Source of the DNA: Cellulomonas sp. SG140 | GTDB taxonomy: Bacteria > Actinomycetota > Actinomycetes > Actinomycetales > Cellulomonadaceae | Direction of reading: 5' to 3' | NCBI RefSeq assembly: GCF_025770785.1 | Contig: NZ_JANZLA010000002.1 | Coordinates: 1 to 64,000, forward strand | Length of the DNA stretch: 64,000 nt | Notes under the pieces: model-generated | Seen by the model: the letters and a program-made list of their open reading frames with translations, nothing else | Told to the model about the DNA's origin: nothing | The model's database searches: none | Program-made: the position numbers and the translations under genes | Shown here: positions 3,644-56,123 of the stretch, piece by piece | Layout: each line of letters opens with the position of its first letter | Numbering within the stretch: the stretch's first letter is position 1

Positions 3644-4564
3644 TCAGCGCAGCTGGAGTCCCCAGCGCAGCACGTGCTCCTGGCCCGCCTCGAGCCGGAC
3701 CAGGTCGTCGCCGGTCCGGAACGCGTCCGCGACGCAGCTCATCGGCTCGACGGCGACGGCGGTGCGCCCGATCCTCTCCACCTGGTCGCCGGTGCACACC
3801 TGCCACGCGGTCGTCGCCGCGTCGCCCCACATGGCGACGGTGCTGCCGTCGGGCCGGCCCAGGGTGGCCCACGTCCGCTCGTCCTCGTCGCGCAGCACGT
3901 CCACCCACGCGTCGTCGAGCGCCAGCCCGGCGAGCGACCGCGACTGGCGCAGGTCGAACTGGTTGGCCACCGGCTCGGTGCCCGTCGGGAGGAGGCGGTT
4001 GTCGACGGTGACGTGCCGGGCGGCGCCCACGCTCAGCGAGCAGTCGTCGACGGCCGCTCCGCCGGTCGACAGCCACGGGTGCACCCCGACCCCGTAGGGG
4101 GCTGTGCTCGAACCCTGGTTGAGCGCGGTGACGGTGCACTCGAGGCCGGCGTCGGAGAGGGTGAACGTCACGGTGATCAGCAGGGGCCACGGGTAGCCAC
4201 CGGTGGGGACGAGGTCGTGCTGCAGCGTGACCGAGGTCTCGTCGTCCCGCGGGCCGGCCGCCGTGAAGCGCTCGTGGCCGACGAGCCCGTGCAGCGCGGT
4301 CATCCGGTCGACCTCGGTGACCGGCACCTGGTAGACGGAGCCCTCGAAGCCGTAGCGCCCGTCCGCCAGGCGGTTGGGCCACGGCGCCAGCAGCGCGCCC
4401 GAGAACGCCGGCGTGAGGACGTCCTCGTCGTAGGGCCGGACGACGTCGCGGCCGCCGACGCGGTACAGCCGCAGGCTCGCGCCGACCTCGGCGACCACCG
4501 CCTCCTGGTCGCCGTGGTGCAGGTGGTGCTGGGTGCCGGAGGGCAGCGGTGTGATCACCCGCAC
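3644..4564 (-). CDS. Aldose 1-epimerase family protein
   Basis: 306 residues, the usual length for galactose mutarotase relatives. Visible features are the substrate-binding region GALLAPWPNR, the first conserved His in TALHGLVGHERF, the catalytic His in GVGVHPWLS and the catalytic Glu in AVEPMSC. It should interconvert alpha and beta anomers of an aldose in the cytoplasm. The exact sugar cannot be told. Divergent from tadA over a 265-bp intergenic region. Confidence 0.9.
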   Translation of the reverse strand: MRVITPLPSGTQHHLHHGDQEAVVAEVGASLRLYRVGGRDVVRPYDEDVLTPAFSGALLAPWPNRLADGRYGFEGSVYQVPVTEVDRMTALHGLVGHERFTAAGPRDDETSVTLQHDLVPTGGYPWPLLITVTFTLSDAGLECTVTALNQGSSTAPYGVGVHPWLSTGGAAVDDCSLSVGAARHVTVDNRLLPTGTEPVANQFDLRQSRSLAGLALDDAWVDVLRDEDERTWATLGRPDGSTVAMWGDAATTAWQVCTGDQVERIGRTAVAVEPMSCVADAFRTGDDLVRLEAGQEHVLRWGLQLR

Positions 4565-4829: not shown

Positions 4830-6056
4830 GTGGACGGCGTCGCGATCGTCGAGCGCGAGGTGCGCGAGCTGATCCGGCGCCGTGGCGTCGACCCCGTGCG
4901 GGACCGAGCCGGGGTGGACGCCCTCGTGGCGGCGGCCATCGCCGACTACGACGAGCGCTCGGTGCTCGGCGCGCTGCCTCCGCTGGCGGATCCCGGTGCC
5001 GTCCACAAGCAGGTGGTCGACTCGGTGGCCGGGCTCGGGCCCCTGCAGCGGTACCTCGACGACGACGCCGTGGAGGAGATCTGGATCAACTCCCCGCACC
5101 AGGTGTTCGTCGCGCGCGGCGGGGAGCCCGAGCTGACCACCACGATCCTCACCGACAGCCAGGTGCGGGACCTCGTCGAGCAGATGCTCAAGGTCTCCGG
5201 CCGGCGGCTCGACCTCAGCAGCCCCTTCGTCGACGCGTCGCTGCCCGGTGGTGAGCGGCTCCATGCGGTGATCCCGGACGTCACGCGTCGCCACTGGTCC
5301 GTGAACATCCGCAAGTACGTCGTGCGTGCCGCCGGTCTGGACGACCTCGTGACCCTGGGCAGCGTCCCACCGACCGTCGCCACGTTCCTGCACGCCGCGG
5401 TCCGCGTGGGTCTCAACGTGGTCGTGTCGGGCTCCACCCAGAGCGGGAAGACGACCATGCTGAACGCCCTCTGCGGGTCGATCCCGCCACGGGAACGGGT
5501 GATCAGCTGCGAGGAGGTGTTCGAGCTGCGCCTGGCGGTGCGCGACTGGGTGGCGATGCAGTGCCGGCAGCCCAACCTCGAGGGTGCAGGCGAGATCCCG
5601 CTGCGGCGGCTGGTCAAGGAGGCGCTGCGGATGCGTCCGAGCCGCCTGGTGGTCGGTGAGGTGCGCGAGGCCGAGGCGCTCGACCTGCTGATCGCTCTCA
5701 ACGCCGGCGTGCCGGCGATGTGCACCCTCCACGCCAACTCGGCGAGGGAGGCGCTGACCAAGCTGTGCACGCTGCCTCTGCTGGCCGGTGAGAACGTCTC
5801 CGACCGGTTCGTCGTGCCGACCGTCGCCTCCGCCGTCGACCTGGTCGTCCACCTCGACCTGGACCCGTCGGGCCGGCGGTCGGTGCGCGAGGTGCTGGCC
5901 GTCCCCGGCCGCGTGGAGGCCGGCGTGGTGGAGACGGCGGAGCTGTTCGTCACGCGTGACCGGCGGCTCGTCCGCGCGGACGGCTTCCCGCCGCACACCG
6001 AGCGGTTCTCGCGTGCGGGCGTCGACCTCGCGGCCCTGCTGCGTGGGCGGGACTGA
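4830..6056 (+). CDS. tadA: TadA/CpaF secretion ATPase of the Flp pilus system
   Basis: 408 residues from a GTG preceded by GGAG at 7-nt spacing. An in-frame ATG 87 bp upstream gives a non-conserved extension. The VirB11/CpaF-type ATPase has Walker A GSTQSGKTT (about 201-209), an Asp box, Walker B around LVVGEVREAEAL and a His box CTLHANSA. It energises assembly of the type IVc (Flp) pilus from the cytoplasmic face. It opens the tad operon and a TAGCGT -10-like box lies about 50 nt upstream. Confidence 0.95.
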   Translation: MDGVAIVEREVRELIRRRGVDPVRDRAGVDALVAAAIADYDERSVLGALPPLADPGAVHKQVVDSVAGLGPLQRYLDDDAVEEIWINSPHQVFVARGGEPELTTTILTDSQVRDLVEQMLKVSGRRLDLSSPFVDASLPGGERLHAVIPDVTRRHWSVNIRKYVVRAAGLDDLVTLGSVPPTVATFLHAAVRVGLNVVVSGSTQSGKTTMLNALCGSIPPRERVISCEEVFELRLAVRDWVAMQCRQPNLEGAGEIPLRRLVKEALRMRPSRLVVGEVREAEALDLLIALNAGVPAMCTLHANSAREALTKLCTLPLLAGENVSDRFVVPTVASAVDLVVHLDLDPSGRRSVREVLAVPGRVEAGVVETAELFVTRDRRLVRADGFPPHTERFSRAGVDLAALLRGRD

Positions 6057-37982: not shown

Positions 37983-38055
37983 TAGCGGGGGTGGGACTCG
38001 AACCCACGACTTCCGGCTTATGAGGCCGGCGAGCTACCAGCTGCTCTACCCCGCC
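37983..38055 (-). tRNA. tRNA-Met (CAT)
   Basis: Acceptor GGCGGGG / CCCCGCT, D arm GAGC...GCTC, anticodon stem CCGGC-CTCATAA-GCCGG, T arm GTGGG-TTCGAGT-CCCAC. The anticodon stem lacks the three G-C pairs of initiators, so this is an elongator type. No encoded CCA. Confidence 0.93.
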
Positions 38056-38093
38056 GCGATGGGCGCCGCCATCTCCTGTAGCTGCACGCCCCG

Positions 38094-38168
38094 TGCCCTC
38101 CGAGGGACTCGAACCCTCGACCCCCCGATTAAGAGTCGGGTGCTCTAGTCCAGCTGAGCTAGAAGGGC
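38094..38168 (-). tRNA. tRNA-Lys (CTT)
   Basis: Acceptor GCCCTTC / GGAGGGC (one G-U), anticodon loop CTCTTAA on stem CCCGA/TCGGG, T arm GAGGG-TTCGAGT-CCCTC. Confidence 0.93.
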
Positions 38169-38172
38169 TTGA

Positions 38173-38248
38173 TGGCTGGCCCGGCAGGACTCGAACCTGC
38201 GACGCGGTGGTTAACAGCCACCCGCTCTACCAGCTGAGCTACGAGCCA
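38173..38248 (-). tRNA. tRNA-Asn (GTT), encoded CCA
   Basis: Acceptor TGGCTCG / CGGGCCA, anticodon loop CTGTTAA on stem GGTGG/CCACC, T arm GCAGG-TTCGAGT-CCTGC. Unlike the other two, the 3' CCA is encoded. Confidence 0.93.
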
Positions 38249-40880: not shown

Positions 40881-40886
40881 TAGAGT
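40881..40886 (+). promoter_or_regulatory. -10 element TAGAGT before ribozyme 1
   Basis: TAGAGT with an upstream TGAC would start transcription near 40893, i.e. at the 5' end of hammerhead 1. The -35 is poor and overlaps the operator. Confidence 0.5.
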
Positions 40887-40893
40887 GACACCA

Positions 40894-40951
40894 GGCGAAA
40901 CCGGCTCCGGCCGGTCGGGCGGGCTGGCATCCCGCTCCTGACGAGCCTGCC
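40894..40951 (+). ncRNA. Type-II hammerhead ribozyme, copy 1
   Basis: Stem II GGC (40894-40896) / GCC (40945-40947). GAAA 40897-40900. Stem III ACCGGC-UCCG-GCCGGU (40900-40915, UNCG loop). Cleavage-site C at 40916. Stem I GGGCGGG / CCCGCUC (40917-40923 / 40931-40937, one G-U). CUGACGA 40938-40944. Loop I CUGGCAU can pair GGCA with UGCC at 40948-40951. All core nucleotides of a self-cleaving hammerhead are present. Predicted cut 40916/40917, 58 nt before the next ATG. Confidence 0.9.
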
Positions 40952-40974
40952 AACCACGAGAACGGATGGACACC

Positions 40975-41076
40975 ATGAGCACGTACGTCACCCGTAAGAC
41001 GACTGCAGACGCCAAGGCCGAGACGCTGGCACGCCGTGCCGCGCGCCGCGCCAAGTACGCGACGACCTCGCTGTGA
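40975..41076 (+). CDS. Small basic hypothetical protein
   Basis: 33 residues (MSTYVTRKTTADAKAETLAR, then RAARRAKYATTSL), directly downstream of hammerhead 1. Strongly basic helix. Its stop overlaps the next start (GTGA). Function unknown. Confidence 0.65.
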   Translation: MSTYVTRKTTADAKAETLARRAARRAKYATTSL

Positions 41077-41237
41077 ACCGCGCACGGATCGCGACGTCCT
41101 GGGTCCTGGTGGTGGGCGTGCTGGTCGGACTTCTGGCAGCGCTCACGCCGTCGCCCCGGATCGAGGAGGACGACCCCCGCTGGGACTGCCGCACGATGGG
41201 CAACCACGTGTGCGGGCCCGTGCAAGTGACGCCATAG
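41073..41237 (+). CDS. Small single-pass membrane protein
   Basis: 54 residues, GTG in a GTGA overlap. One TM helix (SWVLVVGVLVGLLAALT) then an acidic and Cys-containing tail. The last codons contain an exact operator and the stop TAG overlaps the first base of hammerhead 2. Confidence 0.65.
   Translation: MNRARIATSWVLVVGVLVGLLAALTPSPRIEEDDPRWDCRTMGNHVCGPVQVTP
41220..41232 (+). promoter_or_regulatory. Candidate stoperator, exact
   Basis: Exact GTGCAAGTGACGC at the end of the membrane-protein gene, 5 bp before hammerhead 2. Confidence 0.78.
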
Positions 41238-41296
41238 GCGAAACCGGGCATCCGCCCGGTCCGGTGGGCTGGCATCCCACCGCTGACGAGCCTGCC
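41237..41296 (+). ncRNA. Type-II hammerhead ribozyme, copy 2
   Basis: Stem II GGC / GCC (41237-41239 / 41290-41292). GAAA 41240-41243. Stem III ACCGGGC-AUCC-GCCCGGU (41243-41260). C 41261 at the cut. Stem I CGGUGGG / CCCACCG (41262-41268 / 41276-41282). CUGACGA 41283-41289. Loop I CUGGCAU pairs with UGCC 41293-41296. Both hairpin stems differ from copy 1 by compensatory changes. Cut 56 nt before ATG 41318. Confidence 0.9.
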
Positions 41297-41317
41297 GAAC
41301 CTGAGAGTGAGACGACG

Positions 41318-41671
41318 ATGGCGACCCTGCGGACGAACCGACGCGGTGCGATCCACGCGGCCCGGATGGGCTGGGCGTTCCTGGCCTCGAACCTGACCGG
41401 CCGACACGAGACCTACGCGGGCCCCACGGGGATCCTGCCGGAGCCCTGGCGCACCGAGTACCGGGAGGCGCTGCAGCGGGCCCGCGACACGCACCAGGAC
41501 TTCTACGTGGTCCGGTCCTACGCGACGCCGATCGCGTGGCGCGTGGGCACCGAGGACGCCGTGATCCCGGACGTGCGCTACAGCTCCTCGACCTCGCGGC
41601 ACCAGAGCGCCATCCGACTCGCCTACGGCCCGGCCGACGAGCGGCGCGCGCACCTCGCGGCCACGGCCTGA
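41318..41671 (+). CDS. Hypothetical early protein
   Basis: 117 residues, ATG after GAGTGAG, in the 5' context created by hammerhead 2. MATLRTNRRGAIHAARMGWA, AGPTGILPEPWRTEYREALQ, FYVVRSYATPIAWRVG. Looks like a small globular alpha/beta protein. Family not recognised. Confidence 0.75.
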   Translation: MATLRTNRRGAIHAARMGWAFLASNLTGRHETYAGPTGILPEPWRTEYREALQRARDTHQDFYVVRSYATPIAWRVGTEDAVIPDVRYSSSTSRHQSAIRLAYGPADERRAHLAATA

Positions 41672-41702
41672 CCCGACCACCTCGAACCGGAAGGACACGA
41701 CG

Positions 41703-42092
41703 ATGACGCGGTACAACGGCGGCGAGTACGTCGGACTGTGGCAGGGGGGCCCTGGCTACTCGCAGGGTGAGTGGGCAACGGACGCGGAGGTCTTCGACAG
41801 CCTGCAGCACGCCAAGGCGGTGCTCGCCGGCCGCTACGCCCGGGGGTCGCTGTGGCCGCAGACGGTGCCGCACGTCGCCGAGTGGCGCGAGGCGCCCGGG
41901 GGAGAGTCCTACGCCGTCAAGGGCGCCCAGGGCCACAACCTCATGTGCCCGGCCGTCGCCGAGGGGTCGAGCATCCTGCTGGCGCGCCGGGACCGAACCG
42001 GCCTGACGGCCCTGGAGGTCGACGGCCCCCACGCCTGCACGTACCTGCTGGAGATCGGCCCCCGCGGCGGCGTCAAGGTGACGCGCCTGTGA
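41703..42092 (+). CDS. Hypothetical early protein
   Basis: 129 residues, ATG preceded by GGAAGGA. MTRYNGGEYVGLWQGGPGYS, then LWPQTVPHVAEWREAPGGE and a C-terminal LLEIGPRGGVKVTRL. Not recognised. Confidence 0.75.
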   Translation: MTRYNGGEYVGLWQGGPGYSQGEWATDAEVFDSLQHAKAVLAGRYARGSLWPQTVPHVAEWREAPGGESYAVKGAQGHNLMCPAVAEGSSILLARRDRTGLTALEVDGPHACTYLLEIGPRGGVKVTRL

Positions 42093-42187
42093 GCCCGGAC
42101 GCCTGGGCCAACGATCCCGACCGCACCACGCGGCGCGAGACCTGGGACGTGCTCAACGACGTCCTGACCAACCTGCACAGCCTCTAG
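42089..42187 (+). CDS. Very small hypothetical protein
   Basis: 32 residues (MSPDAWANDPDRTTRRETWD, then VLNDVLTNLHSL), GTG in a GTGA overlap. Coupled translation is the main support. Confidence 0.5.
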   Translation: MSPDAWANDPDRTTRRETWDVLNDVLTNLHSL

Positions 42188-42202
42188 ATGGGAGACACAC
42201 CG

Positions 42203-42562
42203 ATGAGCCGAATCCTGCACGTGGGCGTCAACATCACCAAGCTCCGCGACTTCCTGCGCGACTCGGAGGTCGACTGGGAGATGGATGGCGACGGCTGGGA
42301 GGTCTGGGGCGAGCGCGTCGGCGACGACGCCAACGACACCCTGACGCTGCACCTGACCACGGAGGTGGACAGCACCGCCGACGCGGTGGCGCTGATCGCC
42401 AGCGCGGAGCGGGCACGCCTGCTGACGCCGATGGTCGGCGGTGGCGCCCTCGGGGCCCTGGCCGTCCTGACCGATCCGAGCGACTGGTCGGAGGACGTCC
42501 TGACGCTGCACACGACTCGGGCGATCGAGGTCCGCCTGCAGCGCGCACCCTCTTTCGGGTGA
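42203..42562 (+). CDS. Hypothetical early protein
   Basis: 119 residues from ATG 42203, preceded by GGGAG; the ATG at 42188 contains that Shine-Dalgarno. MSRILHVGVNITKLRDFLRD, WEVWGERVGDDANDTLTLHL. Alpha/beta, acidic. Function unknown. Confidence 0.75.
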   Translation: MSRILHVGVNITKLRDFLRDSEVDWEMDGDGWEVWGERVGDDANDTLTLHLTTEVDSTADAVALIASAERARLLTPMVGGGALGALAVLTDPSDWSEDVLTLHTTRAIEVRLQRAPSFG

Positions 42563-42578
42563 CACGTGCTAGTGCCGC

Positions 42579-42607
42579 TTGCAAGTGACGCGGCGACCAC
42601 GTAGAAC
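42579..42607 (+). promoter_or_regulatory. Promoter TTGCAA-N17-TAGAAC with built-in operator
   Basis: -35 42579-42584, -10 42602-42607, 17-bp spacing. The operator TTGCAAGTGACGC (42579-42591, one mismatch) contains the -35. Confidence 0.7.
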
Positions 42608-42645
42608 TGACGCAGACGCACCACGACGACGAGAACGGAGACGCC

Positions 42646-42960
42646 ATGCATGACGACGAGGCCCGGCGCTACACGGGCGGCGAGATCGACGCGATCGCCG
42701 ATGGCTCGGACCCGTGGCTGGAGCGCCCGGACGGGTCCGTCGTGGACCTGGCCGAGCACCTGGACCGGCTCAGCGTCGGGCCCTGCGGCGAGTGCCGCGG
42801 AGGGTTCTTCGCCCCGACGACGAACGGCCCGACCGACCAGGGCGTCGAGCGGTGCGACGCCTGCGACATCTACGACGGCGACCTGAGTGCCGCACTGGCC
42901 CTGGCCGCGCTGATCGGCCCGGACGTCGAGGTGCGCTACGCGGTCGACGCCGACGACTGA
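42646..42960 (+). CDS. Small zinc-ribbon hypothetical protein
   Basis: 104 residues, ATG after CGGAG. Helical N-terminus (GGEIDAIADGSDPWLERPDG) then two Cys pairs (CGECRGGFF ... CDACDIYDG) that should bind zinc. No catalytic motif seen. Confidence 0.75.
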   Translation: MHDDEARRYTGGEIDAIADGSDPWLERPDGSVVDLAEHLDRLSVGPCGECRGGFFAPTTNGPTDQGVERCDACDIYDGDLSAALALAALIGPDVEVRYAVDADD

Positions 42961-42974
42961 CCCACCACCCACAC

Positions 42975-43030
42975 GGCGAAACCCCTACGGGGGTCGCGAG
43001 GGCTGGCATCCCTCGCCTGACGAGCCTGCC
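42975..43030 (+). ncRNA. Type-II hammerhead ribozyme, copy 3
   Basis: Stem II GGC / GCC (42975-42977 / 43024-43026). GAAA 42978-42981. Stem III ACCCC-UACG-GGGGU (42981-42994, UNCG loop). C 42995 at the cut. Stem I GCGAGGG / CCCUCGC (42996-43002 / 43010-43016). CUGACGA 43017-43023. UGCC 43027-43030 pairs with loop I. Stem III is one pair shorter and fully covaried. Cut 54 nt before ATG 43050. Confidence 0.9.
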
Positions 43031-43049
43031 GAACAGATTGGAGACCACC

Positions 43050-44069
43050 ATGTCCCGCGAGACGCTGGAGCACCTGAACACCAACACCCTGATCGGCTAC
43101 ACCGACAAGCGCGGCAACGCCTGGCACTACCGGGCGGAGAAGCAGGGGGCCGAGTCCAACCACTACGCCGGAGCGATCCCGGTCGACGACGTGGTGCGGC
43201 GCCTGTTCGCCTGGCGCGGCGTGGAGGGCGAGATCAGCGCGACGGCGCTCACCGAGACCGGTGTCCTGTCGACGGTCGACCCCGAGCGCAAGGCGATCAT
43301 GCGCTCGGACACCGGAGCGATCCTCGGGGTCTTCAAGTCCGGCTACCGGATCCACCAGTACAAGGACTGGCTGATCGAGAACGTCGAGATGTTGCTCGAC
43401 GCCGACCTCGCCATCGGGTCCGCGGGGTTGTTGAAGGGTGGCGCGGTCGCCTGGGTGCAGATCGAGATGGAGGACACCCTGGAGGCCCCTGGCGGCGTGA
43501 AGTACCGGCCCTTCCTGACCGCCGCGACGAGCATGGACGGCTCGATCGCCACGACGTACCAGACCGGCGCTCAGGTGGTGGTGTGCGACAACACGCTCAG
43601 CACCGCCCTGGCGAGCAAGGACTCCTCCCGGTTCAAGGTGAAGCACTCGCGCTTCAGCCTGAACAAGGTGCAGGACGTGCGTGACGCGCTCGGCATCGTC
43701 CACACCGTCGCCTCGGACTTCGAGGCCCAGGTGCAGGCCCTGATCGACGAGCAGGTGAACGCCGACCGCTGGCGGGCGTTCGTGGCCGCGCACACCGAGA
43801 TCGACAAGGCGCGCGAGGCCAAGTCGAAGCGCGGCATCACCCTCGCCGAGAACAAGTCGGCGGAGCTGAACCGCCTGTGGAACCACGACGAGCGCGTGTC
43901 GCCGTGGGCTGGGACGGCCTACGGGGTGCTCGCCGCGGTGAACACCTACACCCACCACGTCGCGACCGTCCGGAACGCGACTCGCGTCGAGCGAAACATG
44001 GAGCGGGCGGTGACCGGCGGGATCGACCGCTTGGACGCCGACACGCTGCGCGTGCTCGCCACGGTCTGA
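43050..44069 (+). CDS. DUF932 (phage/plasmid-like) protein
   Basis: 339 residues, ATG after GGAG. N-terminal half with AIPVDDVVRRLFAWRGVEGE, then DTGAILGVFKSGYRIHQYKD and LTAATSMDGSIATTYQTGAQ, VVVCDNTLSTALA. This is the DUF932 pattern found in phages and plasmids, of unknown biochemical function. Expressed downstream of hammerhead 3. Confidence 0.85.
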   Translation: MSRETLEHLNTNTLIGYTDKRGNAWHYRAEKQGAESNHYAGAIPVDDVVRRLFAWRGVEGEISATALTETGVLSTVDPERKAIMRSDTGAILGVFKSGYRIHQYKDWLIENVEMLLDADLAIGSAGLLKGGAVAWVQIEMEDTLEAPGGVKYRPFLTAATSMDGSIATTYQTGAQVVVCDNTLSTALASKDSSRFKVKHSRFSLNKVQDVRDALGIVHTVASDFEAQVQALIDEQVNADRWRAFVAAHTEIDKAREAKSKRGITLAENKSAELNRLWNHDERVSPWAGTAYGVLAAVNTYTHHVATVRNATRVERNMERAVTGGIDRLDADTLRVLATV

Positions 44070-44079
44070 CCAGCCCTCT

Positions 44080-44116
44080 CGACCAGCACGCCACGCAGGG
44101 GGCGGCGTGCTGGTCG
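44080..44116 (+). terminator. 13-bp perfect hairpin
   Basis: CGACCAGCACGCC (44080-44092) pairs perfectly with 44104-44116 over an 11-nt loop, between two early genes. No T tract; may be a terminator, attenuator or RNA stability element. Confidence 0.65.
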
Positions 44117-44158
44117 GGGGAGTCGTGCAGACGGCACACCGAGAGAGAGGGGTTCGAG

Positions 44159-44671
44159 ATGACCAAGGACGAGACGATCACCGGAGCACTGGACGCGCTG
44201 GCCCGCATGGACAGCGCCTGGGAGCACCTGGCCTGCAGCGAGGCGGACGACCTCGCAGCGTTCATGGCCGCGCACGGCCGGGCCGAGGACGCGGCGGAGA
44301 TGCTGGCGATCTACCACGTCGACGGCGACGACCACGGCGACCCGCACGCCGCGATCAAGTACCTGAACGCCGACGAGGTGAACGCCGAGACCGGCGAGGG
44401 CCCGGCGCCCATCGAGCGCCCCAACACCGACCAGATGGTCGAGGCGGCTCGCGAGTACGTGGCCGGGCTCGGTGTCGACCAGCCGGCCGAGGCGCCGACC
44501 AGCGACCCCGAGACGCTCAGCGACGCGGAGGTGCTCACCCTGGCGATCTTCGCCATGAACACGGCCCTCTACCCCGAGTCGTCGAGCGGGGCGGACATCG
44601 AGGAGCTGGAGGCCAAGGCCGACAGGGCGATCGAGCGATTGGCGGAGATGCGGGAGGCCGCATCCGCCTGA
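44159..44671 (+). CDS. Acidic hypothetical early protein
   Basis: 170 residues, ATG after GAGAGGGG. MTKDETITGALDALARMDSA, helical and rich in Glu/Asp/Ala throughout (EAKADRAIERLAEMREAASA). No family recognised. Confidence 0.75.
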   Translation: MTKDETITGALDALARMDSAWEHLACSEADDLAAFMAAHGRAEDAAEMLAIYHVDGDDHGDPHAAIKYLNADEVNAETGEGPAPIERPNTDQMVEAAREYVAGLGVDQPAEAPTSDPETLSDAEVLTLAIFAMNTALYPESSSGADIEELEAKADRAIERLAEMREAASA

Positions 44672-44674
44672 CAC

Positions 44675-44732
44675 GGCGAAACCGGCTCCGGCCGGTCCGA
44701 TGGGCTGGCATCCCATCGCTGACGAGCCTGCC
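44675..44732 (+). ncRNA. Type-II hammerhead ribozyme, copy 4
   Basis: Stem II GGC / GCC (44675-44677 / 44726-44728). GAAA 44678-44681. Stem III ACCGGC-UCCG-GCCGGU (44681-44696). C 44697 at the cut. Stem I CGAUGGG / CCCAUCG (44698-44704 / 44712-44718). CUGACGA 44719-44725. UGCC 44729-44732 pairs with GGCA of loop I. Cut 55 nt before GTG 44753. Confidence 0.9.
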
Positions 44733-44752
44733 GATCATGAACGGAGACAGAC

Positions 44753-45388
44753 GTGAAGGACTGGACCTGGGACGAGACCTACACCCGCGGGTGGGCTCGG
44801 ACGGATGACCCGCGCGTGCTCGCCGTGATCGAGCGCGACAGCAGCCCGAGTCGCCCGGACGGCGACGCCTTCGCCCCGACGCTGGTGGGCTACGGCTGGC
44901 GCCACAACGACTACGAGATCGCCCAGGAGGTCGCCAGCGACGACGACGTGCTGCGCGCCTTCCAGCGCGCCTGCGGCTACTTCGGCATCCTCCCGGCGCA
45001 CACGCCCGAGACGATCGTGACCCGCTACATGCGGATCTTCCACGGCACGGAGCTCACCTTCGTCAGCTCGACGCTCGACCGATACGCGAACGTGGTCATC
45101 TTCGACACGCCGACCTGGCGCAACGCGGTCGGGGTGTCCGACGACGCCGAGGACGTGCTGGCCGGCGAGCGGATCACCTGGCAGGCGTACCTCGACGAGG
45201 ACGTCTACGGCGTCGGCACGGCCGTGCGCGCCACGCAGGTGCTCGACGACAGCGACGTCGACCTGAACGACTGGGACGTCTCCATCGAGTCCTGGGGTCA
45301 CTACGGCGACGAGTCGGCAGAGGAGGCCGCACTGGAGCACGCGGCCTGGGCGATCGGCCAGCTGCCCGAGCTCCTGCCCATCGCGTGA
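44753..45388 (+). CDS. Hypothetical early protein
   Basis: 211 residues, GTG after CGGAG, immediately downstream of hammerhead 4. MKDWTWDETYTRGWARTDDP, YGWRHNDYEIAQEVASDDD, then FGILPAHTPETIVTRYMRIF. Acidic, Trp-rich. No family recognised. Confidence 0.75.
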   Translation: MKDWTWDETYTRGWARTDDPRVLAVIERDSSPSRPDGDAFAPTLVGYGWRHNDYEIAQEVASDDDVLRAFQRACGYFGILPAHTPETIVTRYMRIFHGTELTFVSSTLDRYANVVIFDTPTWRNAVGVSDDAEDVLAGERITWQAYLDEDVYGVGTAVRATQVLDDSDVDLNDWDVSIESWGHYGDESAEEAALEHAAWAIGQLPELLPIA

Positions 45389-45534
45389 GGAAGCGCGCCC
45401 AGGAGAGCTTCGAGTGGAAGGTCGCGGCCGTCCCGTGCGGATGGTGCCTGACCGGCTACCACGACGACTGCCCCCGCGAGGGGATCGGCTTCACCTGCAC
45501 GTGCGCCGCAGAAGGACATCCTGCGCGGCGTTGA
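45385..45534 (+). CDS. Tiny cysteine-rich protein
   Basis: 49 residues, GTG in a GTGA overlap. Contains CGWCLTGYHDDCPREGIGF TCTC, a probable zinc knuckle. The stop codon overlaps the TTGACG -35 of the next promoter. Confidence 0.65.
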   Translation: MRKRAQESFEWKVAAVPCGWCLTGYHDDCPREGIGFTCTCAAEGHPARR

Positions 45535-45559
45535 CGTGAAAGTGACGCACCACTAGAGT
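45531..45559 (+). promoter_or_regulatory. Early promoter TTGACG-N17-TAGAGT
   Basis: The best sigma-70-like promoter in the prophage: -35 45531-45536, -10 45554-45559, 17-bp spacing. The spacer contains the operator GTGAAAGTGACGC (45536-45548), so repressor binding would occlude polymerase. Confidence 0.82.
45536..45548 (+). promoter_or_regulatory. Operator GTGAAAGTGACGC in promoter spacer
   Basis: One base from the commonest form; the A variant recurs at 49360 and 39817. Confidence 0.78.
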
Positions 45560-47918: not shown

Positions 47919-48152
47919 ATGTCCAACGAGACCTCGCGCGGCGTCACGAGCAGCTTCCCGGTCCTGGGAGTCCTCGGCATCGCGTTCGTCATCATGAAGG
48001 TCGGCGGCTGGGGTGCCGTCGCGACCTGGCCCTGGTGGCTGGTGCTGATCCCGTTCTGGGGTGGCCTGGCGCTGTTCTTCGTCCTGCTGGCGATCCTCGT
48101 GGTCGTCGCGCTGGCCCTGGGTGCCCGCGGCCGGAAGGTGGTCTTCGCGTGA
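47919..48152 (+). CDS. Two-TM membrane protein
   Basis: 77 residues, ATG with GGAG 10 nt upstream. Two hydrophobic segments (FPVLGVLGIAFVIMKVGGW and WWLVLIPFWGGLALFFVLLA). Could alter host envelope properties; no family recognised. Confidence 0.75.
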   Translation: MSNETSRGVTSSFPVLGVLGIAFVIMKVGGWGAVATWPWWLVLIPFWGGLALFFVLLAILVVVALALGARGRKVVFA

Positions 48153-48865
48153 GCGGGGGCATCGTCTTCACGCCCTGGCCCAAGACGCCTCGGCTGTACC
48201 GCGAGGTCACGATCACCGAGAAGATCGACGGCACCAACGCCGCGGTCGGGATCCGGCCGCTGAGCGACCTGATCGACCTCGGTGACCTGGTGCGGGCGTT
48301 CGGCGCCAGCGAGGACGGCAACGTCGAGCTGGAGTTCGAGGGCGCCGAGTACGTGCTCGCCGTCGTCGGCGGCGCGGCCGTCTACGCCCAGTCCCGCAAG
48401 CGGCTGCTCACGCCGACCTCGGCCGGCGACAACTACGGCTTCGCCGCCTGGGTCCAGCGCAACGCCGAGCACCTGACCGAGATCCTCGGCCCGGGGCTGC
48501 ACTTCGGCGAGTGGTGGGGCTCGGGGATCCAGCGGGCCTACGGGCTGACGGCCGGTGACAAGCGCTTCAGCCTGTTCGACACCCGCAAGGCCCGGAACAT
48601 CGACCACGCCAAGGAGGCGCTCGGCATCGAGGTCCCCGGCCTGGACGTCGTGCCGGTGCTCTACGAGGGCCTGCACAGCGACCGGGTGGTCTCCACGGTG
48701 CTCGACACGCTGACCGCGTTCGGCTCCAGCGCCGAGCCGGGCTTCGGCCGGCCGGAGGGCGTCGTCGTGCGCCACCACGCCTCGGGGGAGCGGTTCAAGG
48801 TGCTCCTGGAGCACGACGACCAGCCCAAGTCGCTCCACGTCGTCGCTGCGCGAGCTGCGGCATGA
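48149..48865 (+). CDS. ATP-dependent RNA ligase family protein
   Basis: 238 residues, GTG in a GTGA overlap. Nucleotidyltransferase motif I ITEKIDGTNAAV (Lys is the AMP-attachment residue), then EFEGAEYVLAVVGGAAVYAQ, LHFGEWWGSG, RFSLFDTRKARN, motif IV PEGVVVRHH and motif V RFKVLLEH. Matches small RNA ligases of the Rnl2/DRB0094-like superfamily, which join 3'-OH and 5'-phosphate ends, i.e. chemistry different from RtcB. Likely RNA repair. Confidence 0.85.
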   Translation: MSGGIVFTPWPKTPRLYREVTITEKIDGTNAAVGIRPLSDLIDLGDLVRAFGASEDGNVELEFEGAEYVLAVVGGAAVYAQSRKRLLTPTSAGDNYGFAAWVQRNAEHLTEILGPGLHFGEWWGSGIQRAYGLTAGDKRFSLFDTRKARNIDHAKEALGIEVPGLDVVPVLYEGLHSDRVVSTVLDTLTAFGSSAEPGFGRPEGVVVRHHASGERFKVLLEHDDQPKSLHVVAARAAA

Positions 48866-50675: not shown

Positions 50676-50876
50676 GTGCCCCAGAACGTGAGCTCGACCC
50701 TGATCCGTCACCGCGCCGAGGGCCTGGGCAAGTACCCGAGCGCGGAGGGCGTCAACTCCTTCGCCATCGGCAGGACCTACAAGCAGCTGCGCTCCTGGGC
50801 AATCTGGGCCGACGCGCTGGCCGGCCAGCACCACAGCGAGGCGGCGCGCATGGCAGCGCGAGGCGGCAAGGCGTGA
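50676..50876 (+). CDS. Small hypothetical protein upstream of rtcB
   Basis: 66 residues, GTG preceded by AAGGAGGG. MPQNVSSTLIRHRAEGLGKY, then RTYKQLRSWAIWADALAGQH. Its stop overlaps the rtcB start, so the two are translationally coupled. Function unknown. Confidence 0.78.
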   Translation: MPQNVSSTLIRHRAEGLGKYPSAEGVNSFAIGRTYKQLRSWAIWADALAGQHHSEAARMAARGGKA

Positions 50877-52078
50877 GCCGCGTGGAGAAGATCACGGACA
50901 AGCTGCTGAGCTGGGCGTCGATCCTGGAGCCCAAGACGCGCGAGCAGGCGATCCGCACCGCGGCGATGCCGTTCGTGCAGCCGCACATGGCCCTCATGCC
51001 CGACGCCCACCTGGGCAAGGGCGCCACGGTGGGCTCGGTGATCCCGACCGAGGGCGCGATCATGCCCGCGGCGGTCGGCGTCGACATCGGCTGCGGCATG
51101 GACGCGGTGCTGACCCAGTGGACGATCGACGACCTCCAGGCGATCGACTACGGCCAGGACGGCTCGCTGCGCCGGCTGCGCGAGGAGATCGAGCGCGCGA
51201 TCCCGCTGTCGGCCGGCAAGTACAACACCGAGCTGACCGCGACGGCGATCGCGCGTCTGAATCGCCGCGACGGCCTGCACGACCTGGCCGCTCGCGCGGG
51301 GTTCGACCCGGCCGTCTACGCCCCGAACTGGGAGCGCCAGCTCGGCTCGCTCGGCTCGGGCAACCACTTCATCGAGATCAGCCTGGACGAACTGGACCGG
51401 GTGTGGATCTTCCTGCACAGCGGCTCGCGCGGCGTCGGCAACAAGCTGGCCCAGCACCACATCAAGGTGGCCCAGGAGCAGATGCGGCGCCGGTTCATCG
51501 AGCTGGAGGACCCGGACCTGGCCTACCTCATCGAGGGGGAGCCGGCCTTCGCCGCCTACATCGCCGAGCTGCGCTGGGCCCAGGCGTTCGCCCGCGAGAA
51601 CCGCGCCGAGATGATGGACCGGGTGGTCCTCACGCTCTCCGAGTTCATGCAGGAGGACGTCGAGAGTCAGGAGCACATCTCCTGCCACCACAACTACACG
51701 CAGCGCGAGCGGCACTTCGGCCGCGACCTGTGGGTCAGTCGCAAGGGCGCCATCGACGCGCACGAGGGCGTCATGGGCCTCATCCCGGGCTCGATGGGCA
51801 CGCGGTCCTACGTCGTGCGCGGCCGGGGCAACGTCGCGTCGCTGTCGTCGGCCCCGCACGGCGCCGGCCGCGAGTACAGCCGCGCCGCAGCTCGCAAGGC
51901 GTTCACCTTCGAGCAGCTCGACGCGGCGATGGAGGGGATCGAGTACCGGCGCACCGACGCCTTCATCGACGAGATCCCCGCGGCCTACAAGCCGATCGAC
52001 GTCATCATGCGCGACGCCGAGCCGCTGGTGGAGGTCGTGCACGAGCTGCGCCAGATCGTCAACGTGAAGGGGGACTGA
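50873..52078 (+). CDS. rtcB: RtcB RNA ligase (2',3'-cyclic phosphate / 5'-OH)
   Basis: 401 residues, GTG in a GTGA overlap. RtcB signature blocks in order: MALMPDAHLGKGATVGSVIP, AVGVDIGCGMDAVLT, LGSGNHFIEISLDELD, VWIFLHSGSRGVGN, SCHHNYTQRERHFG, and SSAPHGAGREYSRAAARKAF (His that accepts GMP). All metal-binding Asp/Cys/His positions appear present. RtcB joins 3'-phosphate or 2',3'-cyclic-phosphate ends to 5'-OH ends using GTP and Mn. These are the termini that hammerheads and anticodon nucleases generate. Confidence 0.95.
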   Translation: MSRVEKITDKLLSWASILEPKTREQAIRTAAMPFVQPHMALMPDAHLGKGATVGSVIPTEGAIMPAAVGVDIGCGMDAVLTQWTIDDLQAIDYGQDGSLRRLREEIERAIPLSAGKYNTELTATAIARLNRRDGLHDLAARAGFDPAVYAPNWERQLGSLGSGNHFIEISLDELDRVWIFLHSGSRGVGNKLAQHHIKVAQEQMRRRFIELEDPDLAYLIEGEPAFAAYIAELRWAQAFARENRAEMMDRVVLTLSEFMQEDVESQEHISCHHNYTQRERHFGRDLWVSRKGAIDAHEGVMGLIPGSMGTRSYVVRGRGNVASLSSAPHGAGREYSRAAARKAFTFEQLDAAMEGIEYRRTDAFIDEIPAAYKPIDVIMRDAEPLVEVVHELRQIVNVKGD

Positions 52079-53436: not shown

Positions 53437-53709
53437 GTGAGCATCCAGACGTCGTTCGAGCGGTTCGACCGGGAGAACCCCAAGGTCTACGAGCGCCTCG
53501 TCGAGCTGGCGATCGAGTGGCTGGCGACCCGGCCGCGGGTCGGGGTGAAGATGCTGTGGGAGGTGCTCCGCTGGGAGACCTCGCTGCGCACGGCCGGCGA
53601 CGAGTTCAAGCTGAACAACAACTTCCAGTCGCGCTACGCGCGCAAGCTCCTGGCCGACTTCCCCGAGTGGGAGGGCCGCGTCATGACCCGAGAGCTGAGG
53701 GCGGCATGA
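53437..53709 (+). CDS. Hypothetical protein
   Basis: 90 residues, GTG with GGGAG 8 nt upstream. MSIQTSFERFDRENPKVYER, LVELAIEWLATRPRVGVKML, FKLNNNFQSRYARKLLADFP: a helical domain widespread in phages and restriction-associated loci, possibly DNA-binding. Name unknown to me. Confidence 0.78.
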   Translation: MSIQTSFERFDRENPKVYERLVELAIEWLATRPRVGVKMLWEVLRWETSLRTAGDEFKLNNNFQSRYARKLLADFPEWEGRVMTRELRAA

Positions 53710-54302
53710 GCGCCGGCAACATCTGGCTCACCTCGGACCTGCACCTCGGCCACGAGAAGGTCGCCACGATCCGCGGCTTCCGCAGCCAGCTCGCGCACGA
53801 CGACGCGATCGAGCGCATGTGGTGGGACACGGTGAAGCCCAAGGATCAGGTCTGGGTGCTCGGCGACATCGCCGTGAGCTCGCCGGCCTACGCGCTGAAC
53901 CTGCTGGCCCGCGTGCCGGGGGAGAAGCACCTCATCTGGGGCAACCACGACCAGGGGCACCCGATGCATCGGGACGCGCACCGCAAGGCGGCGCGGTACC
54001 TGGAGGTGTTCGCCTCGGCGCAGGCGTTCGCGCGGCGCCGGATCGAGGGCCGGGAGGTGCTCCTGTCGCACTTCCCGTACGTCGGCGACACCCCCGGCCG
54101 AGACGGAGACCGGCACACCCAGTACCGGCTCCGCGACGAGGGGCTGCCCCTGATTCACGGGCACGTGCACGACCCGCGGGTGTTCTCCGTGGCGCCGTCG
54201 CGCTACCCGTTCTCGCCGCAGATCCACGTCGGGCTCGACGCCTGGGGTCTGCGCCTCGTCAACATTGACGAGGTGGCCGAGATGCTTAGGCTCGTCTCGT
54301 GA
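53706..54302 (+). CDS. Metallophosphoesterase; candidate recombination directionality factor
   Basis: 198 residues, ATGA overlap. Motifs: TSDLHLGHEKV, VLGDIAV, LIWGNHDQG, LLSHFPY and LIHGHVHDP, a complete calcineurin-like set. In Bxb1 the factor that switches the serine integrase to excision belongs to the phosphoesterase-like group, so this gene, the last large one before the integrase, is a candidate. That role is inference. Confidence 0.87.
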   Translation: MSAGNIWLTSDLHLGHEKVATIRGFRSQLAHDDAIERMWWDTVKPKDQVWVLGDIAVSSPAYALNLLARVPGEKHLIWGNHDQGHPMHRDAHRKAARYLEVFASAQAFARRRIEGREVLLSHFPYVGDTPGRDGDRHTQYRLRDEGLPLIHGHVHDPRVFSVAPSRYPFSPQIHVGLDAWGLRLVNIDEVAEMLRLVS

Positions 54303-54692: not shown

Positions 54693-56123
54693 CTACGCCA
54701 GCTCGGCGATCTGCACGAACTTGCCCGGGTCGTAGACCGTGCCCTTGCGGGCGACACCGGGCCCTGCGATCGAGACGGTGCAAAGCTGCGACAGCAGGGC
54801 CCTGCGCTGTGCCAGGGGCAGCTCGTTCCAGTGCACCCCAACGGACTCCTCGTTGCGCAGCCCGGTGAAGCCAGAGAGGAGCGCGCCGCGACTGGTGCGC
54901 GCGAGGCGCGCCTCCAGGCCGTCCAGCTCGCCTTGCACGCGCGCGGCAACGCGGCCGTACGCGCCGAGGTCGATGGTGCCACGCGCGAGCCCGTCCTCCA
55001 GCATGTCGAGGCGGCTGCGCAGCGCCCGCATCTCCTCCTGCAGACCCTTCTCCTCCTCGCCGTCACCGCTGCCGATGAGCTTCTCCAGCACGCCAGGCAT
55101 GGCGATGTAGTTCACCACCCAGCCGCGCACGTAGCTGTCGCACGCCTGCCGCGGGACGGAAAGGTGGTTGTGGGTGGTGCAGACGTACCGAGGCTCCCCG
55201 CGTGATGCTGACGCGCGCACCGTGTTCTTGTCCTCGCAGCGCGTGCACGTGGCGATGCCGGTCAGCAGGTTCAGCGGCGTGCGCCCCATGTGCAGCGTGC
55301 CCACCTTGCGGCTCGGGTCGGCGAACTTGGCGAGGAGCGCGAGGTGCGTCGCCTCGTCCAGGATCTTCGGCCACTGGCCGTTGTCGTAGACCTGGCCGTT
55401 GTACTCCCGCTTGCCGATGTAGAGCGGGTTGCTCAGCACGCCGCGGACCCCACGTGAGCGCCACGGGCCGATCTTGTTCTTCTGGCTCGGCCGGCGAGAG
55501 TAGAGCCCTGCGTCGTTCCACTCCTTCGCGATCTGCACCAGTGACACGCCGTCGAGCACGAGTTTGGCGGCGCGGCGGATCGCCTCGGCCTCGGCTGGCA
55601 CGACGTGCATGTGGTCCTGGGTGTAGCCGAACGGAGCCACGCCCGACGTGTAGGGCAGCCCCTCCTTGGCGCGCTGCTCGTTGGCGAGACGCTGCCGAGC
55701 GGCCTTGCGCTCGACCTCCGCCCGCGCCACCGCGGCGATGATCCGGGCCACCATCCGGCCCACGTCGCTCGTCAGGTCGATGTCCCCGGAGACCGTCGCG
55801 ATGCCGATGTCGTGCTCGTCGGCCAGCTGGATCACGCGCTCCAGCTCGATCATGTTGCGAGTGATGCGGTCGATCGCCCAGGCGACCACGAGGTCGACCT
55901 CGCGCGCCTCGATGAGCTCGACGACCTCCTCCCAGCCGGGCCGCTTCGCCCCGCTGTAGCCGGAGATCGAGACGTCGCGGCGGACGCCTACGATCGTCCA
56001 GCCCCGCATCTCACAGAGGCGCCGGCACGCCTCCTCCTGGCGATCGTTGGACCGCCCCTCGCCCGTGTCGTCCCTGCTCACGCGGGTGTAGATGACGACC
56101 CGCTTGCCCCCTGCGCTCATCAT
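54693..56123 (-). CDS. int: Large serine integrase
   Basis: 476 residues from ATG 56123 (ATG 56120 or TTG 56132 are alternatives). Catalytic Ser in YTRVSRDDTG (about residue 16), resolvase domain with AWAIDRITRN and ISGYSGAKRPGWEEV, helix E, then a recombinase domain (PFGYTQDHMHVVPAEAEAIR, RGVLSNPLYIGKREYNGQVY), a zinc ribbon (CTRCEDKN ... VCTTHNHLSVPRQACDSYV) and a coiled coil with EEKGLQEEMRALRSRLDMLE. Catalyses attP x attB integration in tadC. Its start lies about 40 bp from the attachment core. Confidence 0.96.
   Translation of the reverse strand: MMSAGGKRVVIYTRVSRDDTGEGRSNDRQEEACRRLCEMRGWTIVGVRRDVSISGYSGAKRPGWEEVVELIEAREVDLVVAWAIDRITRNMIELERVIQLADEHDIGIATVSGDIDLTSDVGRMVARIIAAVARAEVERKAARQRLANEQRAKEGLPYTSGVAPFGYTQDHMHVVPAEAEAIRRAAKLVLDGVSLVQIAKEWNDAGLYSRRPSQKNKIGPWRSRGVRGVLSNPLYIGKREYNGQVYDNGQWPKILDEATHLALLAKFADPSRKVGTLHMGRTPLNLLTGIATCTRCEDKNTVRASASRGEPRYVCTTHNHLSVPRQACDSYVRGWVVNYIAMPGVLEKLIGSGDGEEEKGLQEEMRALRSRLDMLEDGLARGTIDLGAYGRVAARVQGELDGLEARLARTSRGALLSGFTGLRNEESVGVHWNELPLAQRRALLSQLCTVSIAGPGVARKGTVYDPGKFVQIAELA

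Follow-up and report, generated by a model that had tools for sequence, protein, structure and literature searches.

The stretch of DNA analysed here, 64 kb (64,000 nucleotides) of contig NZ_JANZLA010000002.1 of Cellulomonas sp. SG140 and hereafter the window, contains a prophage in which four short RNA elements are, by sequence, structure and covariation, type II hammerhead ribozymes. On its minus strand the prophage encodes terminase, portal, major head protein, tape measure, minor tail protein and endolysin; on its plus strand lies a block of genes from ~40.5 to 54.6 kb, which we read as early genes by their likeness to those of relatives. An earlier note on this DNA had placed four hammerheads in a prophage early operon, with predicted cuts 54–58 nt upstream of four start codons. 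All four elements were located at those positions with that spacing, and prophage genes do surround them; that the block forms a single transcript is what we infer. Scores below are for the Rfam family RF02276 (Hammerhead_II) and for R1, a model covering 38 aligned phage copies, the four window copies among them.

40893-40955, plus strand: hammerhead type II copy 1 (RF02276 39.0 bits; R1 72.6 bits), predicted cut after C40916, 58 nt before ATG 40975
41236-41300, plus strand: hammerhead type II copy 2 (RF02276 40.3 bits; R1 63.6 bits), predicted cut after C41261, 56 nt before ATG 41318
42974-43034, plus strand: hammerhead type II copy 3 (RF02276 30.7 bits; R1 64.2 bits), predicted cut after C42995, 54 nt before ATG 43050
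44674-44736, plus strand: hammerhead type II copy 4 (RF02276 35.2 bits; R1 68.6 bits), predicted cut after C44697, 55 nt before GTG 44753

Sequence, structure and covariation of the four elements

Each copy follows the same order: stem II (GGC/GCC) and GAAA, then a closed stem III with GUC ahead of the cut, then a closed stem I whose loop (loop I) is CUGGCAU, and last CUGACGA and a tail UGCC able to pair with loop I. The core (GTC ahead of the cut, CTGACGA and GAAA) is present in 4/4 window copies, as is the complementarity between GGCA in loop I and UGCC in the tail after stem II; a stem I that varies around a fixed core, together with the loop I/3' tail pairing, had been described in the earlier note and was found as described. 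The hairpin loops are short and without an inserted domain, stem III is identical in copies 1 and 4, and copy 2 overlaps the stop codon of the preceding gene (41235-41237). In minimum-energy folds computed without pseudoknots, copies 3 and 4 form both hairpin I and hairpin III.

A scan with the Rfam type II family, proposed as a check in the earlier note, matched 4/4 window copies, with copies 1 and 2 above the gathering score of 37 (39.0, 40.3) and the other two below it (35.2, 30.7). Our descriptor scan of the window returned four matches on the plus strand and none on the minus strand; across the window and 18 related loci, matches lay on one strand only in each locus, and five dinucleotide shuffles per locus yielded none. 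In an unfiltered R1 scan of 36000-58000 the four copies scored 63.6–72.6 bits and the next best match 11.5, a gap of 52 bits. RF02276 at E<=0.001 matched nowhere else in the source genome (3.81 Mb) in a scan that recovered three of the four copies, and 198 genomes of relatives gave a single further match, weak and partial.

Covariation was measured over 117 distinct hammerhead copies. Counted in a model-fitted alignment (A2) that leans towards structure, pairing holds in 95.5% of pair cells, with a covariation of 0.526 compared with 0.152 in shuffles and at most 0.098 in slid versions, with changes on both sides at 12 of 16 pairs, including all seven of stem I. The pseudoknot between loop I and the 3' tail, which lies outside the fitted model, is paired in 84.3% of cases and covaries (0.353 vs 0.165), one of its pairs switching between UA (48) and AU (37). 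A2 was used for pair counts in place of a MAFFT alignment (A1) in which the cut column is misplaced in some rows. The CGAAAC and CTGA-GA columns are invariant in 38/38 aligned copies. Together, the RF02276 matches, this covariation and the pseudoknot bear out the type II identity first proposed for the elements.

Hammerhead and tRNA-like arrays in related phages

The nearest matches of the window portal are Streptomyces phages of the Arquatrovirinae, ~69% identical. All 11/11 R4-like Streptomyces phages (R4, phiELB20, Paedore, Triumph, Andris, Hank144, Diane, Amethyst, Daudau, Caelum and VieEnRose), which were selected by BLAST hit to a hammerhead copy, carry 8–12 hammerheads each, 104 in total, on one strand. 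That search gave 20 records; eight of them duplicate one of these phages under another accession, and Loofah was left out; the 236 R1 hits also include second copies of the same phages. The annotation of R4 and its ten relatives lists none of the hammerheads in the stretches inspected.

Further arrays came from two pattern scans. In IMG/VR we found 26 stretches in 25 contigs, and RF02276 (E<=0.1) matched 25/25 of these records, 21/25 above gathering score, with 1 to 17 clear copies; an Escherichia coli control gave one match under the cut-off at the same E-value. The record G215 has 20 RF02276 matches, two weak and one unlisted, and was counted as 17. A scan of the genome collection revealed multi-copy arrays in Saccharothrix sp. 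ALI-22-I and Lentzea sp. NEAU-D7, where R1 found at least 17 and at least 12 copies, respectively, in the regions read, and where a portal 67–69% like that of the window lies near the array. Single hits of the same scan (two Planctomycetota, Bacteroidales, Omnitrophota, Euryarchaeota, Paracoccus) were set aside; the Paracoccus and Bacteroidales genomes contained no RF02276 match at E<=0.01. The claim that four copies in one operon are unusual does not hold for this phage group, in which relatives carry 8–17 and four copies are few, although other hammerhead contigs have 1–4.

Spacing and placement recur across these phages. From the predicted cut to the next annotated start, with annotated starts used as they stand and 103 of the 104 hammerheads parsed, the median in the eleven named phages is 57 nt, and 74/103 parsed cuts fall within 40–75 nt; by a simple start rule reaching at most 60 nt past the element, the median is 50.5 nt in Lentzea (10/12 placed) and 53 nt in Saccharothrix (15/17 placed). 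Six of the eleven phages were used for tests of gaps and orthologs: a hammerhead is present in 50/57 of their early gaps of at least 60 nt, as compared to 3/77 shorter gaps. One conserved site (L061:2689-2770, with its equivalent in nine other named phages) holds a 76–82-nt hammerhead with a long stem III. Core variants TTGACGA and CCGATGA occur in the Lentzea and Saccharothrix arrays (L114, L115), and one unparsed copy in Diane has CCGACGA (L090:8319-8386).

We considered whether hammerheads replace internal promoters and rejected the idea: in the interior, the 11 hammerhead loci have a single consensus site and the 4 sister loci none, and no trade-off between promoters and hammerheads is apparent. 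Of the consensus promoter sites on the early strand, 9/10 fall within the first 1 kb, and at the start of the region there are seven in the 4 sister loci vs two in the 11 hammerhead loci.

A different element occupies early gaps in sister phages. Among 12 related phages, chosen by portal or DUF932 similarity before this element was found, RF02276 matched 0/12, and so 0/7 of the Camvirus/Likavirus records among them, in a search identical to the one that matched in hammerhead phages, and R1 found none in the early regions of four of the 12. In 8/9 early gaps of at least 55 nt in Danzina and 8/12 in Joe there is instead a repeated 40-nt element (one Danzina copy being a variant) in which a 5-bp stem leads into an 11-nt linker containing GGCA, followed by a 6-bp stem that TTCGAGN closes and then by ACT. 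It resembles the acceptor and T-arm of a tRNA and has no anticodon arm. Aligning 28 of 32 anchored matches (A3; 25 distinct, four phages), with three that do not pair and one in shifted register omitted, gave 99.7% pairing and a covariation of 0.551 vs 0.128; a D-arm-like pair (CG 18, GC 7) and a pair from linker to T-loop (AU 19, GC 3, CG 2, UA 1) also covary. Over four tRNA-like loci (L138, L139, L140, L141) no Rfam family reached its gathering score and no tRNA family matched, and ARAGORN, which looks for the full cloverleaf, called no tRNAs in L138, L139 and L141 and two in L140. In all four the arrays run along the early strand, which is the minus strand, and they are intergenic where checked (Danzina, Joe).

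A model of the tRNA-like element (R2; E<=0.001) found 6–10 copies in 7/7 Camvirus/Likavirus records, with ten elements in phiCAM. It had no match in any of the eleven hammerhead phages or of five phages more distantly related, in phiC31 or in the source genome. At least 120 stretches with the element were recovered, 80 of them listed; model R1 was run on 20 of these and phiC31, and R2 on 26, mostly multi-copy, and R1 found no hammerhead in the 20 loci or in the phiC31 region read. An IMG/VR locus, L076, has a hammerhead at 4085-4151 and a tRNA-like element at 5302-5351, ~1.2 kb apart on the same strand. In L179:1606-2981 there are seven tRNA-like matches, five spaced ~100–140 nt and denser than the intergenic arrays; these may be truncated tRNA genes. 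The arrays of tRNA-like elements in Camvirus and Likavirus are new here, and a literature search by titles and abstract openings, with subscription papers mostly outside it, returned no report of the arrays or of the tRNA-like element.

Do the two elements occupy the same sites? Comparison of Danzina with the six R4-like phages by reciprocal best hits gave 22 gene pairs with an element on both sides, 8 and 6 with one only, and 52 with neither; per gene the counts are 5/2/2/10 (both, one, one, neither; Fisher p 0.045), after one intragenic match of nine Danzina regex matches was dropped. For Joe the counts are 12/6/12/52 by gene pair and 4/1/2/11 by gene (Fisher p 0.022). These data suggest that a gene preceded by an element in one phage tends to have an ortholog that is also preceded by one. 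Examples of shared sites include a gene whose Triumph ortholog is annotated as an OCR-like antirestriction protein, and a basic micro-ORF (open reading frame) of ~41–48 aa; this micro-ORF comes after a hammerhead in R4-like phages but after a tRNA-like element in Danzina and Joe, and the 33-aa ORF behind copy 1 in the window is similar to it.

In a portal tree of 25 rows, midpoint-rooted and with a long branch for the window row, the phages with tRNA-like elements cluster together (support 82/83) beside the R4-like phages, and the window, Lentzea and Saccharothrix prophages lie outside both groups. Labelling the tips by element requires 2 changes, vs a shuffled mean of 8.1. With moderate confidence, the simplest reading of this tree makes hammerheads the older element, with a single replacement.

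Genes and other features around the elements

The early block encodes DUF932, deoxynucleoside monophosphate (dNMP) kinase, SPFH protein, RNA ligase family protein, RtcB and phosphoesterase. The features placed in it and at its end are as follows.

40975-41076, plus strand: 33-aa basic micro-ORF after copy 1 (blastp vs Diane_4501: 63% over 19 aa, E=3e-4)
41318-41671, plus strand: gene after copy 2, phrog_32689, unknown function
43050-44069, plus strand: DUF932 gene after copy 3 (PF06067, phrog_1221)
44753-45388, plus strand: gene after copy 4, without PHROG or Pfam match
45531-45559, plus strand: sigma70-like promoter TTGACG-17-TAGAGT (one in 40-50 kb, 0.3 expected)
48149-48865, plus strand: RNA ligase family protein (PF09414, E=2e-13)
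50873-52078, plus strand: RtcB RNA ligase, same early block (PF01139, E=2.2e-114)
53706-54302: phosphoesterase, same early block
54693-56123, minus strand: phage integrase at the end of the early block (phrog_95, E=6.7e-104; phrog_125, E=1.3e-26)

The N-terminal part of the integrase is DNA-invertase-like (serine recombinase). A TAGAGT hexamer lies at 40881-40886, a few bases before copy 1 and without a clear -35; three sister phages have consensus promoters with TAGAGT as their -10, and transcription might begin at the copy 1 ribozyme itself. At 44081-44115, in an early gap without a hammerhead, there is a 12-bp perfect hairpin without a T-run. Three tRNA genes lie on the minus strand at 37983-38248, with an HNH endonuclease gene on one side and the terminase region on the other. 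No exact repeat of at least 14 was found between the flanks tested for attL/attR, and a defence-gene scan of ten early proteins gave no match. A portal search of viral contigs gave 21 matches, mostly on short contigs. Contamination of the source assembly is given as 6.25%, and at E<=1e-60 the portal matched none of 97 other genomes of the genus and order, its own prophage alone being matched; the assignment of the prophage to its host is therefore not secured.

A proposed role in cutting early mRNA, and its known counterparts

We consider it probable that the hammerhead array punctuates an early polycistronic mRNA and that the tRNA-like elements are its equivalent in Camvirus and Likavirus, a reading that draws on identity by sequence and covariation, on strand, spacing and distribution in the examined records, and on positional correspondence. 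The early block would be transcribed as one long message, and every element would cut it ~55 nt ahead of the start codon that follows. With stems I and III both closed, the upstream piece would end in hairpin III with a 2',3'-cyclic phosphate, and the downstream piece would start with a 5'-OH, hairpin I and the pseudoknot, directly ahead of the ribosome-binding site. Decay that depends on a 5'-monophosphate acts poorly on 5'-OH ends, and both pieces may therefore be protected, the likely outcome being mono- or oligocistronic mRNAs with structured, decay-resistant ends and, potentially, altered stability or expression.

Camvirus and Likavirus would do the same job with host RNase P. Minimal RNAs of acceptor and T-arm are substrates of bacterial RNase P, and the ACT after the stem fits, in part, the 3' contact of the enzyme; for these reasons we read the sister element as a cut site, probably cleaved by host RNase P. 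Since several of these gaps hold the tRNA-like element in sister phages, what selection maintains is likely the cutting of the message between genes. A wider version of this proposal, which we favour by a little, holds that early mRNA of the Arquatrovirinae type needs intergenic cutting and that a hammerhead array, likely ancestral (its carriers being the window prophage, Lentzea, Saccharothrix and the R4-like phages), was swapped at many of the same sites for RNase P-cut tRNA mimics in the Camvirus-Likavirus lineage.

Other explanations can be held against the same observations. The cuts could act as regulated switches, with folding or a ligand setting the translation or expression of the next gene: every element adjoins a ribosome-binding site at a similar distance, one site in 10/11 named phages has the longer, 76–82-nt form with its long stem III, and regulated cleavage is raised in the portion of Perreault 2011 available to us (PMC3088659). 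The short loops of the window copies, with no inserted domain, and the tRNA-like replacement in sister phages, which favours the cut over a specific sensor, make such switches unlikely. If instead the elements were selfish or passive repeats copied between gaps without benefit to the phage, the identical stem III of copies 1 and 4 would fit, and self-cleaving ribozymes are said in the accessible text of Perreault 2011 to be common in selfish elements (PMC3088659); yet stems diverge with compensation around a core fixed in 38 aligned copies, sites and spacing recur between phages, and a different structured element stands at several orthologous sites in sister genera, so that we give this explanation very little weight. 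That the elements are mere stem-loops acting as terminators or spacers, their likeness to hammerheads incidental, is scarcely credible: GC-rich hairpins do sit closely after stop codons, but the CGAAAC and CTGA-GA columns are invariant (38/38 aligned copies), the open stem II pairs, the pseudoknot covaries and shuffles yield no matches.

A partnership with RtcB looked compelling in the window, where RtcB, an RNA ligase family protein and a phosphoesterase share the early block. RtcB joins 2',3'-cyclic phosphate and 5'-OH ends, the kind hammerheads make, and the chemistry thus fits a scheme in which the prophage enzyme joins ribozyme-made ends and fragments between hammerheads become circular or spliced RNAs. 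However, RtcB does not regularly accompany hammerhead arrays: it is present in 1/28 hammerhead records, that of the window's own genome, and in 0/27 others, many of them fragments but including Triumph, R4 and several contigs of ~50 kb. The RtcB search of viral contigs returned no relative, and the RNA ligase family (PF09414) occurs in 1/23 records, 16 of them with hammerheads. As RtcB occurs in 652/50,697 phage records (213 of these Mycobacterium phages) and the prophage has three tRNAs, tRNA repair is a simpler use. In the section of Perreault 2011 accessible to us no spliced or circular products were detected (PMC3088659). We rejected this candidate and hold it to be quite improbable.

Several observations weigh against punctuation of early mRNA by these elements. 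At the level of the elements, copies 3 and 4 fall under the RF02276 gathering score, and minimum-energy folds of copies 1 and 2 (no pseudoknots) pair the stem I region otherwise. As to placement, 29/103 parsed cuts lie outside 40–75 nt from the annotated start, 11/104 elements are wholly within an annotated gene (six of them in R4), and some window gaps hold a promoter-like site or a plain hairpin in place of a hammerhead. Records with 1–4 hammerheads exist, some on contigs 45–63 kb long, and small numbers therefore occur in other phages. With regard to the sister element, RNase P cleavage is proposed from its resemblance to a tRNA; an element is on one side only in 14/88 Danzina and 18/82 Joe ortholog pairs; the Fisher p values are modest and come from two tests that have genes in common and are not independent. 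L076, alone among the window, 29 hammerhead loci and RobsFeet, all scanned, holds both elements, which are thus not strictly exclusive.

If the swap took place, a phage ribozyme and a host ribozyme would be interchangeable within one system of mRNA punctuation; if both elements are cut, selection would act on cutting as such, and the tRNA-like element would represent a new class of signals for processing phage mRNA. A natural comparison is provided by Joe, phiCAM and Danzina, since in Danzina and Joe a number of the same early genes come after tRNA-like elements. R4 is a classic laboratory phage of Streptomyces and, because it and its ten relatives hold 8–12 hammerheads each, the role of prokaryotic hammerheads, which a 2017 review describes as an open question in the part available (PMC6155905), is testable in standard strains.

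Each element has known counterparts. The window copies share with RF02276 the core, the open stem II, the closed stems I and III and room for the pseudoknot, and differ in that two score below the gathering threshold, the stem III hairpin is shorter than the consensus and loop I is CUGGCAU in all four. For the sister element, the nearest likeness is mascRNA-menRNA, an RNA cut by RNase P and RNase Z: this family (RF01684) shares the tRNA-like fold and was the sole tRNA-like Rfam match, sub-threshold at 26.2 bits (gathering 42.5, E=0.47), whereas the sister element is 40 nt long, has no anticodon arm and is present in many copies per phage.

For the arrays themselves the closest precedent, as far as its accessible text goes, is Perreault 2011 (PMC3088659), which describes natural type II hammerheads, their pseudoknot and hammerhead clusters around prophage genes, reports that three tandem bacterial arrangements cleaved in vitro and one also in E. 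coli, and proposes that long phage RNAs are processed into operon- or gene-length mRNAs. The same pages place the hammerhead of haloviruses HF1/HF2, like those here, before an early phage gene, with the transcript 5' end mapped within 3 nt of the cut; it differs in lying 13 nt before the start codon, in its variant core and in belonging to an archaeal virus (PMC3088659). As in the prophage clusters of that study, several hammerheads flank genes or gene blocks on the same strand in our prophage, presumably within one transcript. In contrast to its tandem and triple arrangements (PMC3088659), the arrays described here reach 8–17 copies per phage, occupy most early gaps and give way to another element in sister genera.

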